From assembly GCF_001462205.1 (NCBI RefSeq), contig NZ_LKIR01000008.1, forward strand, positions 55,266 through 107,620: a stretch of 52,355 nt of DNA. Direction: 5' to 3'. The position numbers were made by a program, and so were the translations under genes. Positions within the stretch are counted from its first letter, which is position 1. Each line of letters starts with the position of its first letter. Below the pieces are notes generated by a model. It worked only from the letters and a program-made list of their open reading frames with translations. It did no database searches and had not been told where the DNA came from. Positions 2,059 through 8,167 of this stretch are shown piece by piece. Source of the stretch: Haloparvum sedimenti. GTDB lineage: Archaea > Halobacteriota > Halobacteria > Halobacteriales > Haloferacaceae.

Positions 2059-2682
2059 ATGAGCGATGAACCCCCACTCGTGCTCGTCGTCGAGGACGAA
2101 CCCGACCTGGCAGACCTCTATGCAGCGTGGCTCGGCAGCGACTACCGGGTTCGAACCGCCTACGGCGGCCGAGAGGCGCTGGACCAGCTCGACGACGAGG
2201 TGGACGTAGTCCTTCTGGACCGGCGGATGCCGGGGCTGTCCGGCGACGAGGTGCTCGTCACCGTCCGCGACCGCGACATCGACTGCCGCGTCGCGATGGT
2301 GACCGCGGTCGAGCCCGACTTCGACATCGTCGCGATGGGCTTCGACGACTACCTCGTCAAGCCGGTGACGAAGGAGACCCTCCGGGAGACCGTCGACGAC
2401 CTGCTGGAACGAAGCCAGTACGACGCCGGCGTCCAGGAGCTGTTCGCGCTCAGCTCCAAGAAGGCCCTGCTGGAGACCGAGAAAGGACAGAGCGCGCTCG
2501 CGGACAGCGACGAATACCAGGAGCTCTCCGACCGGATCGTGGAGCTGCAGTCGGAACTCGACACGGCCGTGAGCTCCCTCGAGGAACACGAGGACTTCGA
2601 GCGGATGTTCAGGGAGTTCGAGGACGGCGAGGCGCCCGACGAGGACGACACCGCGGATGACACCGTGGATACGGACGAGTAG
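2059..2682 (+). CDS. Response regulator with receiver and HalX domains
   Basis: 207 aa. Residues 1-115 are a complete receiver domain: acidic pocket E12-D13, phospho-acceptor D54 in LLDRRMP, T82 and K101 in VKP. Residues about 125-190 form the helical HalX domain, found with receivers in haloarchaea and of unknown function. The tail is very acidic. No DNA-binding domain is visible, so output is probably through protein contact. The start at 2059 follows a GAGGACC stretch (weak ribosome site), and a TATA-like ATTTTGATATAG near 1998-2009 lies 50-60 nt before it. The gene converges on the LOV-containing histidine kinase, with 63 bp between the stops, so that kinase is a plausible partner. Pairing is inferred from position only. 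Confidence 0.92.
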   Translation: MSDEPPLVLVVEDEPDLADLYAAWLGSDYRVRTAYGGREALDQLDDEVDVVLLDRRMPGLSGDEVLVTVRDRDIDCRVAMVTAVEPDFDIVAMGFDDYLVKPVTKETLRETVDDLLERSQYDAGVQELFALSSKKALLETEKGQSALADSDEYQELSDRIVELQSELDTAVSSLEEHEDFERMFREFEDGEAPDEDDTADDTVDTDE

Positions 2683-2745: not shown

Positions 2746-4533
2746 CTACCGTGGTTCGGCGACTCCCGTGAATTCGAACCTGGCACCGCCGGTGGAGCCC
2801 TCTTCGATCGAGACCTCCCACCCGTGAGCCAGTGCGATCTGTTTGATGCTCACCATCCCGAATCCGGTTCCGTCCTCCTTCGTCGTGAATCCGGGCTTGA
2901 AGACATCTTGACGCTCCCGTTTGGAGATTCCGGGCCCGTCGTCCTCGTAGTAGAAGCCGTCGGGAAGCGTTCCGACTCGCATCGCCGTCCCCGTCCCGGT
3001 GTGCTCGACCGTATTTTTCACGAGATTGTCGGCGAGCCGGATCAGCGCGTCGCTATCGGCCAGGATCGGCTTCGAGTCGACGACCGCCAGCGATTCCGGT
3101 TCCGTTTCGAAGGTGTCCCACGACCGGAACGCGTCCCCGAGTTCGACCGGCGCCACGTCGCTCACCAGATCCCCTCGCTGCATCACGGTCGCGAGGTCGT
3201 CGACGAGCTCTTCCAGCCGTTCCGCGGCGGCCGCCGCGTCGTCCAATCGGCTCGTGTCGTCGAGTTCCTTCGCGAGTTCGATGTTTCCCTGAATGATGTT
3301 GAGCGGCGTTTTCAGGTCGTGTGAAAGAACGTTTCCGAACTCGCTTATCCAGCCGAGTTGCGATTCGATCTCGGACGTGTGCGCCCGTCGCTCGGTTATC
3401 TCGCGCTGGAACCCGATGAAGTTCGTGACCTCCCCGTCTTCGTTCTCGATCGGCGAGATGTCGAGGAGGTTCCAGAACGGGTCCCCGTCCGCGTCGTAGT
3501 TGAGGATGTCCAGCGAGATCGGGTCGCCGGCGTCGACAGCCGCCCGTATCTCGTCGACGGCCTTGGGATCGGTGTCTTCTCCCTGTAAGAACCGGCAGTT
3601 CCGGCCCAGTACGTCCGCTTCGTCGTAGCCGGTCAGCTTTTCGAACCCGTCGTTGAGATAGACGATCGGGTTGTCCTCTCGCGTCGCGTCGGTGATGACG
3701 ATCCCGAGCGTCGCTGCGTCGAGCGCTCGGTTCTTCAACGCGAGTTCGGCTTCGAGTTCGTCCCACCGGTCGATCTCCTGTACGATGCACACGTGACCGC
3801 CGTTGTCCATCTGCGTGAGAACGAGCCGCTCCGGGACCGGCTCGCCCTGCTTCGTGACTCCGGTCGACGCGCCGCGCCACGTTCCCTCGGTTTCGAGTTC
3901 GGGAAGGATCTCGTCGTGGAACCGCTCGGCTTCCTCCGGCGGGTACAGTACGTCCCAATGCTCTCCGATCAGTTCGGCACGGTCTCGGTTATAGACGGCC
4001 GCGTACGCCTCATTCATGTACTGGTAGACGCCGTCGTCGTCGATGATCCCGATCCCCTCTTCGGCGGATTCGATCGCCAAGAACCCGCGTCGAACCTGGG
4101 CTTCGGCCCAGTACTTCTCCACGAGGTTCTCGATCTTGTTCGCGAGGACGGGATACTCCTCGGTGCCGCCCTTCTGGAGGTACTCGTCGACGCCCGCCGT
4201 GATCGCCCGGCTCGCGATCTCCTCGCTGCCCTTGCCGGTGAAGAGCACGAACGGAAGGTCGACCCCCTCGTTGCGAAGCCTGTTGAGAAGTTCCAGCCCA
4301 TCCAGCTTCGGCATGTCGAAGTCGCTCACGATGCAGTCGTATTCGTCTTCCTCGAGGGTCGCGAGCGTCGCTTCCGGGTCACAGATCGTCGTCGTCTCGA
4401 TCCCGTCGATCTCCCGCTCCAGAAACGCCGCGGACATGTCCACGAACGATTCGTCGTCGTCGACGAGAAGCACCGACATGTCTCGATGCCCCGCATCGAA
4501 TGGAGGGATTTCACTCAATGGAGCCGTCGTCAT
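2746..4533 (-). CDS. Hybrid sensor histidine kinase: receiver-PAS-LOV-HisKA-HATPase
   Basis: 595 aa, no membrane segment, so cytosolic. Order: receiver (about 19-140, phospho-acceptor D71 in SDFDMP), PAS (about 148-260), a second PAS that matches a LOV photoreceptor domain (about 264-382), HisKA with the H-box LSHDLKTPLN (H405), and HATPase with N-box NLVKNTVEH, G1 DDGPGI and G2 GTGFGM. The LOV domain has GRNCRFLQ with C313, then R330, NY (N345), FWN (N355) and FIGFQ (Q376), the residues that hold flavin and form the photo-adduct in known LOV proteins. A blue-light-sensing kinase is therefore likely. A TATA element about 24-33 nt upstream supports the first ATG, although M19 is possible. By eye, third positions are less GC-rich than in neighbours, hinting at transfer. 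It faces the HalX regulator and diverges from doxX. Confidence 0.93.
   Translation of the reverse strand: MTTAPLSEIPPFDAGHRDMSVLLVDDDESFVDMSAAFLEREIDGIETTTICDPEATLATLEEDEYDCIVSDFDMPKLDGLELLNRLRNEGVDLPFVLFTGKGSEEIASRAITAGVDEYLQKGGTEEYPVLANKIENLVEKYWAEAQVRRGFLAIESAEEGIGIIDDDGVYQYMNEAYAAVYNRDRAELIGEHWDVLYPPEEAERFHDEILPELETEGTWRGASTGVTKQGEPVPERLVLTQMDNGGHVCIVQEIDRWDELEAELALKNRALDAATLGIVITDATREDNPIVYLNDGFEKLTGYDEADVLGRNCRFLQGEDTDPKAVDEIRAAVDAGDPISLDILNYDADGDPFWNLLDISPIENEDGEVTNFIGFQREITERRAHTSEIESQLGWISEFGNVLSHDLKTPLNIIQGNIELAKELDDTSRLDDAAAAAERLEELVDDLATVMQRGDLVSDVAPVELGDAFRSWDTFETEPESLAVVDSKPILADSDALIRLADNLVKNTVEHTGTGTAMRVGTLPDGFYYEDDGPGISKRERQDVFKPGFTTKEDGTGFGMVSIKQIALAHGWEVSIEEGSTGGARFEFTGVAEPR
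3388..3744 (-). other. LOV (flavin-binding PAS) domain within the histidine kinase
   Basis: This sub-gene region encodes residues about 264-382 of the kinase. The codon for the photoactive Cys (C313) is at 3595-3597. All seven polar or adduct-forming positions usually used to recognise a LOV domain are present: N312, C313, R314, Q317, N345, N355 and Q376. The second arginine that contacts the FMN phosphate also has a candidate, R330. Flavin binding itself is inferred. Confidence 0.85.
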
Positions 4534-4722: not shown

Positions 4723-4748
4723 GTTACCCTGTCGAAGCTGGATCACGT

Positions 4749-5303
4749 ATGTCATCCACCGAAGTCGAGCTACGAAGCACGATCGGCGGGTTCACCGCAA
4801 CCGGCAAACTGCACACTCTGAGCGTCTGGTTCATCCTCGCGCTGCGACTGATGATGGGGATCGCCTTCTTCCAGAGCGGGTTCGGGAAGGTGCTCTCGGG
4901 GAGTTTCGACGCCGCGGGCTACCTCCAGAACGCGCCGCCGAGCAACGGGAGCCCGGTCGCGGACCTGTTCGTGGCGATGGGGAGCAACGCCGCGTTCGTC
5001 GACTTCGTTAACATCGCGGTCCCGTGGGGAGAGGTCCTGATCGGACTCGGACTCCTCTTCGGCGCGCTCACCCGACTGGCGGCCTTCTGGGGCGCGTTCA
5101 TGATGCTGCTGTTCTACCTCGGCAACTGGGACATCTCCCACGGCTACATCAACGGCGACTTCGCGTACATGCTGGTGTTCCTCTCGGTCGCGGCGTTCGG
5201 CGCCGGCCGGATCCTCGGCCTCGACGCCTACATCGAGGCGTACGAGATCGACGGCCAACCGCTCGTCGAGCGGTACCCCTGGGCGCGGTACTTCCTCGGC
5301 TGA
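4749..5303 (+). CDS. DoxX family membrane protein
   Basis: 184 aa. Four hydrophobic segments can be seen: about 25-45 (SVWFILALRLMMGIAFFQSG), 78-102, 106-128 and 136-155. The first, with its RxxMGxxFFxSGxGK pattern, is the DoxX/SURF4-type signature. The family sits in membranes and is linked to respiratory quinol oxidases, thiosulfate oxidation or redox stress, but the activity of most members is unknown. The ATG at 4749 is chosen over one at 4677 because the TATA element lies between them at leaderless distance from 4749. It converges on msrA with a purine-rich 46-bp gap, a neighbourhood that fits oxidative defence, though only loosely. Confidence 0.87.
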   Translation: MSSTEVELRSTIGGFTATGKLHTLSVWFILALRLMMGIAFFQSGFGKVLSGSFDAAGYLQNAPPSNGSPVADLFVAMGSNAAFVDFVNIAVPWGEVLIGLGLLFGALTRLAAFWGAFMMLLFYLGNWDISHGYINGDFAYMLVFLSVAAFGAGRILGLDAYIEAYEIDGQPLVERYPWARYFLG

Positions 5304-6038: not shown

Positions 6039-6443
6039 ATGGTTACGCTGGGACTGGTCGTGGCGCAGTTCAACGACTCCGTGACGGGACCGATGGCCGA
6101 GGCGGCCCGCGAGGCGGCCGACGCCCGCGACGCCGAGATCGCCGCGGAGGTGCCCGTGCCGGGGGCGTACGACGCGCCGCTCGCCGCGGACCGGCTGGCC
6201 CGCCGCGAGGATGTCGACGCCATCGCGGTCGTCGGCGCCATCGTCACGGGCGACACCGACCATGACCGCGTGATCGCGGAGGCGACGGCGGAAGCGCTCA
6301 CAGAGGTGAGCCTCGACCGCGACACCCCCGTCACGTTCGGCGTGAGCGGGCCGGGGATGTCCGGCGCGGAGGCCCGCGAGCGCACGGACAAGGGCGCAGC
6401 GGCCGTCGACGCCGCACTCGACCTGGCGGAGGAACTCCCATGA
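6039..6443 (+). CDS. ribH: 6,7-dimethyl-8-ribityllumazine synthase
   Basis: 134 aa, typical of the short archaeal lumazine synthases. It condenses 5-amino-6-ribitylamino-uracil with 3,4-dihydroxy-2-butanone 4-phosphate, the penultimate step to riboflavin. Visible family blocks are VVAQFNDSVT (substrate loop), VPVPGAYDAP, VVGAIVTGDTDHD (the catalytic His region) and VTFGVSG. The stop overlaps the start of the aminotransferase by four bases (ATGA), so the two genes are very probably co-translated. Riboflavin supply is of interest because of the predicted flavin-binding kinase 1.5 kb away, but no regulatory link can be seen. Confidence 0.95.
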   Translation: MVTLGLVVAQFNDSVTGPMAEAAREAADARDAEIAAEVPVPGAYDAPLAADRLARREDVDAIAVVGAIVTGDTDHDRVIAEATAEALTEVSLDRDTPVTFGVSGPGMSGAEARERTDKGAAAVDAALDLAEELP

Positions 6444-7733: not shown

Positions 7734-7779
7734 ATCCTGCTGATCGGGACAGCAACACCCAGAAAGCCCCAGTCGGCTC
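7734..7779 (-). repeat. End module of repeat copy 1, first unit
   Basis: 46 bp, identical to 7815-7860. It is the mirror of the module at 45099-45143 on the plus strand, which differs at only a few positions. Confidence 0.9.
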
Positions 7780-7814
7780 TCCCTGCTGCTGTTCTAGTTT
7801 TGACTGGGTTGCAG

Positions 7815-7860
7815 ATCCTGCTGATCGGGACAGCAACACCCAGAAAGCCCCAGTCGGCTC
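7815..7860 (-). repeat. End module of repeat copy 1, second unit
   Basis: 46 bp, an exact direct duplicate of 7734-7779. This unit is the one joined to the core block, so the other is the extra copy. Confidence 0.9.
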
Positions 7861-8167
7861 GACCGGCCGCGCCTCGCTGCGCTCCTCGCTCCCCGCACAG
7901 CTCGCTGCGGTGCTTACGTCGTCGGGGCCGGATCGAGCCGACTGCCCCTTTCAGTCCCACCCACAGCCCCGCCCCACTCCGCACCGCGACCGCCCTGCAC
8001 CGCAGCCTCACACCTCCCCAGCCTCGGCGGCGGCGCGGCTGCGAAACCGCACAGCAGGCGGCCGCGCCGCCGCCTCCCTCGCGCGCGTTCCTCGCGCGCG
8101 CCGACCGCATTAGCACCAGGATTCGGTGGGAACACAACGGCACCGCGTCCGCACCGCCACGGGGAAA

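Follow-up and report, generated by a model that had tools for sequence, protein, structure and literature searches.

The window analysed here, a stretch of 52,355 nucleotides from Haloparvum sedimenti, encodes a histidine kinase that is very probably a soluble blue-light receptor with a predicted flavin-binding LOV domain, belonging to the REC-PAS-LOV-HK type that is widespread among haloarchaea. An earlier note on this DNA had proposed a blue-light LOV receptor kinase at this position. The canonical LOV domain within a complete haloarchaeal histidine kinase was borne out, but the rarity, odd domain order, HalX partnership and riboflavin link that the note attached to it were not. If the LOV domain is photoactive, the kinase would be a clean test case for the control of genes by light in haloarchaea through a non-rhodopsin route.

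Domain organisation of the kinase

The kinase is encoded by a minus-strand open reading frame that runs from an ATG start at 4533 to 2746. Its features, in window coordinates, are as follows:

2746..4533, minus strand: REC-PAS-LOV-HisKA-HATPase_c histidine kinase, 595 aa (Pfam domains)
4168..4473, minus strand: N-terminal receiver (REC), residues 21-122, with D25-D27, phospho-acceptor D71, T99 and K121 (Pfam)
3772..4071, minus strand: first PAS domain, non-LOV, residues 155-254 (Pfam)
3388..3744, minus strand: LOV domain, residues 264-382 (profile, PDB sequence and fold matches, residues)
3583..3606, minus strand: LOV core GRNCRFLQ, residues 310-317, with the codon of the adduct cysteine C313 at 3595-3597
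3193..3345, minus strand: HisKA dimerisation and phospho-acceptor domain, residues 397-447, with H405 (Pfam)
2767..3057, minus strand: HATPase_c, residues 493-589, with N-box DNLVKN, G1 box DDGPGIS and G2 box GTGFGM

Pfam places the receiver and a PAS domain before the LOV domain and the kinase after it, which is the layout of an archaeal REC/PAS-LOV-HK protein; the LOV region itself is recognised as PAS_9 (residues 277-381). The phospho-acceptor H405 and the N, G1 and G2 boxes are all intact, as expected of a HisKA sensor kinase. Because the highest hydropathy over 19 residues is only 0.92, no transmembrane helix is expected and the kinase is probably soluble. The stretch 3388-3744, in which the LOV domain had been recognised earlier, is in frame with residues 264-382, and the minus strand had been implied by the description of the neighbouring HalX gene as converging on it.

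Identity of the LOV domain

The domain at residues 264-382 is a real LOV domain. The core GRNCRFLQ with its adduct cysteine conforms to the LOV pattern GXNCRFLQ, and the flavin-contact and core residues C313, R314, Q317, N345, N355 and Q376 are all present, with N345, N355 and Q376 supplying the Asn, Asn and Gln expected on the G-, H- and I-beta strands for flavin contact. The core and the four residues C313, N345, N355 and Q376 lie exactly where the earlier note had put them. Its argument that such a set would hardly arise by chance also holds, as the residues go far beyond chance and are backed by profile and fold matches.

A search with LOV profiles had been suggested as a check, and a placement among non-LOV PAS families was not seen. 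The NCBIfam models for YtvA and for LOV kinases scored 159 and 140 bits on the LOV stretch, whereas the generic PAS and NifL models reached approximately 86 and 84 bits, so that the LOV-specific profiles exceed generic PAS by about 53-72 bits. Both LOV scores lie below the full-length equivalog cut-offs, since the remaining parts of those proteins do not match; the alignment to the LOV-kinase model covers the LOV part and a little beyond. In a sequence search against the PDB, the top 60 matches were without exception LOV domains, or variants and fusions engineered from them, the best being YtvA (E 5.7e-35).

Structure prediction, the other computational check suggested, points the same way. 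An AlphaFold2 model of the LOV domain, built from seven haloarchaeal homologs, had a core pLDDT of about 85-91 and a predicted order of strands and helices as in LOV proteins. When this model was searched with Foldseek, the top 50 fold matches in the PDB were all LOV domains (E 1e-14), including YtvA, Meiothermus LOV and Brucella LOV-HK. The predicted fold is thus that of a LOV-type PAS domain with a J-alpha helix, this C-terminal helix being a low-confidence part of the model. The model of the full-length kinase was too poor for use (pLDDT 58.5).

Distribution and comparison with known LOV proteins

LOV proteins had been described as rare in archaea, and the placement of REC and PAS before LOV as uncommon. 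Neither claim survives comparison with the genomes and the literature. A DNA pattern for GxNCRFxQ located the LOV core motif in 312 of 392 Halobacteria genomes, while the reversed pattern used as a control found almost none. Losi 2014 catalogued 167 LOV proteins from 82 archaeal species, in which LOV is combined with RR, PAS or GAF units and with kinases or HTH domains (PMC4844311), and REC, PAS or GAF units ahead of LOV with a C-terminal kinase are an already described archaeal form (Losi 2014, PMC4844311; Valle 2025, PMC12202551). The window kinase shares this combination of RR and PAS units with LOV and a two-component kinase, and it adds to a kind of haloarchaeal LOV kinase that is already described. 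Of 171 genomes from the family of the source organism, 83 contain a strong match to the whole kinase (E <= 1e-100, a threshold at which the LOV domain is not always intact), and the genome of the window itself holds a second canonical LOV kinase (L091:8439-10358).

Two other domains in the same genome have departed from the canonical site. A LOV-like kinase on the minus strand of L132 (C49:1-2600) carries Pro at the position of the adduct cysteine (GRNPRILQ) and retains the N, N and Q residues; its LOV-like domain is 53% identical to that of the window and resembles the Pro variants from Lake Diamante. Valle 2025 describes such Pro-for-Cys variants (PMC12202551). In L125, a domain has lost the site (GRDRGILW).

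The nearest biochemical precedent is ALovD-1, from a Halonotius kinase of Lake Diamante, which is likewise an internal PAS domain of a kinase and for which flavin binding and a photocycle at high salt have been shown (PMC12202551). For this LOV domain, taken from a multi-PAS haloarchaeal kinase, Valle 2025 recorded photocycling at 446/390 nm with salt concentrations of up to 3 M (PMC12202551). ALovD-1 occupies the middle position among three PAS domains, and its LOV motif contains Tyr, whereas the window protein is a REC-PAS-LOV-HK with the canonical GRNCRFLQ. With its NYDADG turn and FWN-L sequence, the window LOV domain fits neither group A (FWN-R) nor group B (FWN-Q) of Valle 2025 (PMC12202551). 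No solved structure is closer in sequence than the LOV domain of Bacillus subtilis YtvA (PDB 2MWG, 2PR5), which also ranks among the nearest folds, with 44-49% identity in structural alignments, although YtvA has a C-terminal STAS domain in place of a kinase. The Brucella abortus LOV-HK (PDB 6PH4, 6PPS), also a blue-light histidine kinase, is a strong fold match for the LOV domain; there LOV comes first, followed by PAS and the kinase, whereas in the window kinase REC and PAS come first and LOV is joined directly to the HisKA helix.

The neighbouring HalX response regulator

As the earlier note had described, a response regulator gene converges on the kinase gene; 63 bp separate the two:

2059..2682, plus strand: REC-HalX response regulator, with its HalX domain at about 2407-2610; no other HalX protein was found in the genome

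The output of HalX regulators is indeed undescribed in the literature found (PMC5847659), and the two genes had been proposed to form a new light-signal route. The neighbourhoods of their homologs speak against this pairing. Of 168 family genomes, 164 have a strong REC-HalX ortholog, and none of the 146 high-quality ones lacks it. Within 1.5-kb flanks, the orthologs mostly adjoin guaB (IMPDH), a TrmB gene or both, as in the window, and in none of these flanks was a LOV kinase seen beside them; wider views of 15 genomes agree. Conversely, a profile built from 30 orthologs found HalX near the kinase in the window only, among 32 neighbourhoods that include 27 other genomes, though diverged HalX domains could be missed by it. 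No neighbour of the kinase gene is conserved across genera. The adjacency is therefore not evidence of a dedicated pair, the kinase/REC-HalX neighbourhood is not a conserved one, and pairing by synteny was rejected. In the window itself, guaB, a TrmB-family regulator and REC-HalX (26-2682) form a conserved haloarchaeal neighbourhood.

The inventory of receivers in the genome, which is about 98% complete, bears on where the phosphate might go. There are 10 receiver proteins, six of them fused to kinases (the window kinase included). The remainder comprise two proteins of REC-PAS (L130:1536-2522) and REC-PAS-GAF-PAS (L126:1638-3323) form without a recognised output, one Bat-type HTH_10 factor (L125:1504-4377) and the one REC-HalX, which leaves only the last two with a recognisable non-kinase output domain. 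By elimination, REC-HalX is a fair candidate acceptor. It is nonetheless very unlikely to be the exclusive partner of the LOV kinase in a specific light-to-HalX pathway. Convergent adjacency, the status of REC-HalX as the sole HalX protein found and the scarcity of receivers with a recognisable output would all suit such a pathway, but the regulator is near-universal whereas strong matches to the kinase occur in about half of the family, its orthologs keep company with guaB and TrmB, no HalX was found near the kinase homologs of the 27 other genomes, and about 16 HisKA kinases in the genome make sharing likelier than exclusivity.

Alternatively, REC-HalX could serve as a common hub phosphorylated by many kinases, including the LOV kinase, so that light would be one input of many. 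We consider this unlikely in absolute terms, yet more likely than a private partnership. A single HalX protein, facing some 16 HisKA kinases in a genome where just two receivers have a recognisable output, would fit a hub, as would the presence of REC-HalX irrespective of that of the LOV kinase. On the other hand, the kinase-fused receivers, including D71 of the window kinase itself, could take the phosphate instead, and in a genome about 98% complete diverged receivers or HalX domains may have been missed. The short receiver list means that the target of the kinase should be findable by a small phosphotransfer screen.

Loss of the kinase and decay of the flavin site in relatives

Over the REC-PAS-LOV part (approximately residues 1-390), identity stays at 63-78% in proteins whose C-termini differ. 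The homologs in L072 and L073 have an extra PAS domain before the kinase (720-760 aa), and in L076 and L031 the LOV slot is occupied by a different, non-LOV PAS domain according to pairwise BLAST. Kinase-less REC-PAS-LOV proteins were found in L004 (384 aa) and in eight Haloferax-type genomes (391-444 aa), so labelled because L006 (Haloferax sp. Q22) shares sequence features and gene neighbourhood with L026/L097. In a maximum-likelihood tree, the Haloferax-type kinase-less copies form one clade (100/100), and the window protein groups with those of Halobellus clavatus, Halobacterium sp. KA-4 and Halorubrum laminariae (98/94). In L004:6001-7992, a TrmB-family HTH gene directly follows the kinase-less gene on the same strand, and the flavin residues are intact; the two genes are possibly a light-sensor/transcription-factor unit.

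All flavin residues are kept in two of the eight Haloferax-type kinase-less copies. In the other six they are not, with various combinations of C313 to Y, R314 to G, Q317 to Y, S or H, N345 to T, S or I, N355 to A and Q376 to H or Y. These decayed copies (L025, L026, L027, L029, L032 and L082) mostly lie near an intact LOV kinase. Relatives that carry the kinase retain the flavin residues in nearly every case. Seven key sites, namely the six flavin-contact or core residues and N312, are 94% kept across the other homologs, compared with 52% for the rest of the LOV domain; in the six decayed copies this is inverted, with 48% of the key sites kept and 79% of the rest. Changes affected 6/6 flavin columns as against 3/15 other invariant columns (Fisher p 0.0015, in a test that treats columns as independent and on related copies from one clade that were selected for their decay). 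The invariant residues of REC and PAS1 are unchanged in these copies. In six of the eight Haloferax-type neighbourhoods, the DNA examined also encodes a longer LOV protein whose core motif is intact (in two of these proteins the core motif alone was confirmed), and in five of the six the short copy is one of those that decayed.

From these sequences we infer that the LOV site, once detached from the kinase, may have lost its purpose, which suggests that the photochemistry is maintained for kinase control. The loss of the flavin site in kinase-less copies would in this way support light control of the kinase where the two are joined. There are counter-examples on both sides: the kinase-bearing homologs in L087 (all six residues replaced) and L083 (Q to H), and the kinase-less proteins in L004, L077 and L080, whose sites are intact. 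As the kinase is kept in L087 and L083 while LOV chemistry is lost, photochemistry is not strictly required of REC-PAS-LOV-HK kinases. The association of kinase loss with flavin-site decay in Haloferax-type REC-PAS-LOV orthologs appears to be new, and the series provides a natural experiment on what maintains LOV chemistry.

Proposed mechanism and a redox alternative

The most likely mechanism follows that of LOV kinases already characterised. The LOV domain would hold FMN, or another flavin, non-covalently. Blue light would be expected to produce a Cys313-flavin C4a adduct with protonation of N5, upon which Q376 on the I-beta strand may switch its hydrogen bond. The J-alpha helix, which starts near residue 380, would then relay the change to the HisKA helix and so alter autophosphorylation at H405. 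The N-terminal receiver, through D71, and the first PAS domain probably supply a second input. The kinase is an orphan whose downstream partner is not set by gene position, and the neighbouring REC-HalX is one candidate acceptor among several.

There are LOV-like domains that bind flavin yet sense redox or form no adduct. The window domain might accordingly bind flavin but serve chiefly to sense redox state or oxygen, or it might be an ordinary ligand-binding PAS, with no physiological role in light sensing. PAS flavoproteins such as NifL are established redox sensors, and the genome itself has the non-photochemical GRNPRILQ and GRDRGILW versions alongside the canonical one. We nevertheless regard such a role as improbable, given that the photochemical cysteine is kept in the examined kinase-bearing homologs that have a LOV domain, with the sole exception of L087, and that the YtvA-family LOV model outscores that of NifL by about 75 bits.

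The reading of the protein as a blue-light receptor kinase can be extended to a broader proposal, in which blue light acts through the kinase to send phosphate to the conserved REC-HalX as a hub for many kinases, and in which Haloferax-type genomes have kept a kinase-less REC-PAS-LOV whose photochemistry was lost near an intact LOV kinase. We put this forward as a speculative scheme that is, taken as a whole, rather improbable. Were it true, the uncharacterised HalX output domain would gain a switchable light input; if the LOV domain is photoactive, HalX output could be made light-switchable.

Other features of the window

The riboflavin synthesis gene ribH lies at 6039-6443, 1.5 kb from the start of the kinase gene, as the earlier note had stated. 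The functional link read into this proximity was rejected, as ribH is a housekeeping gene and did not turn up close to the kinase in relatives. Genes for DoxX and MsrA lie between the two. The DoxX-family gene (4746-5303) adjoins the LOV kinase gene here and in L074, L075 and L084, three genomes of another genus; its orientation differs, and a DoxX-kinase operon was therefore rejected.

Further along, at 7734-7870, the window contains a 56-nt intergenic repeat in duplicate; the copies are 93% alike, are spaced by 81 and include ACAGCAACACCCAGAAAGCCCC. Repeats of this type occur at 119 places in the genome (up to two mismatches allowed; none with the control), often arranged in tandem every 75-81 bp, and constitute a dispersed family of short tandem repeats.
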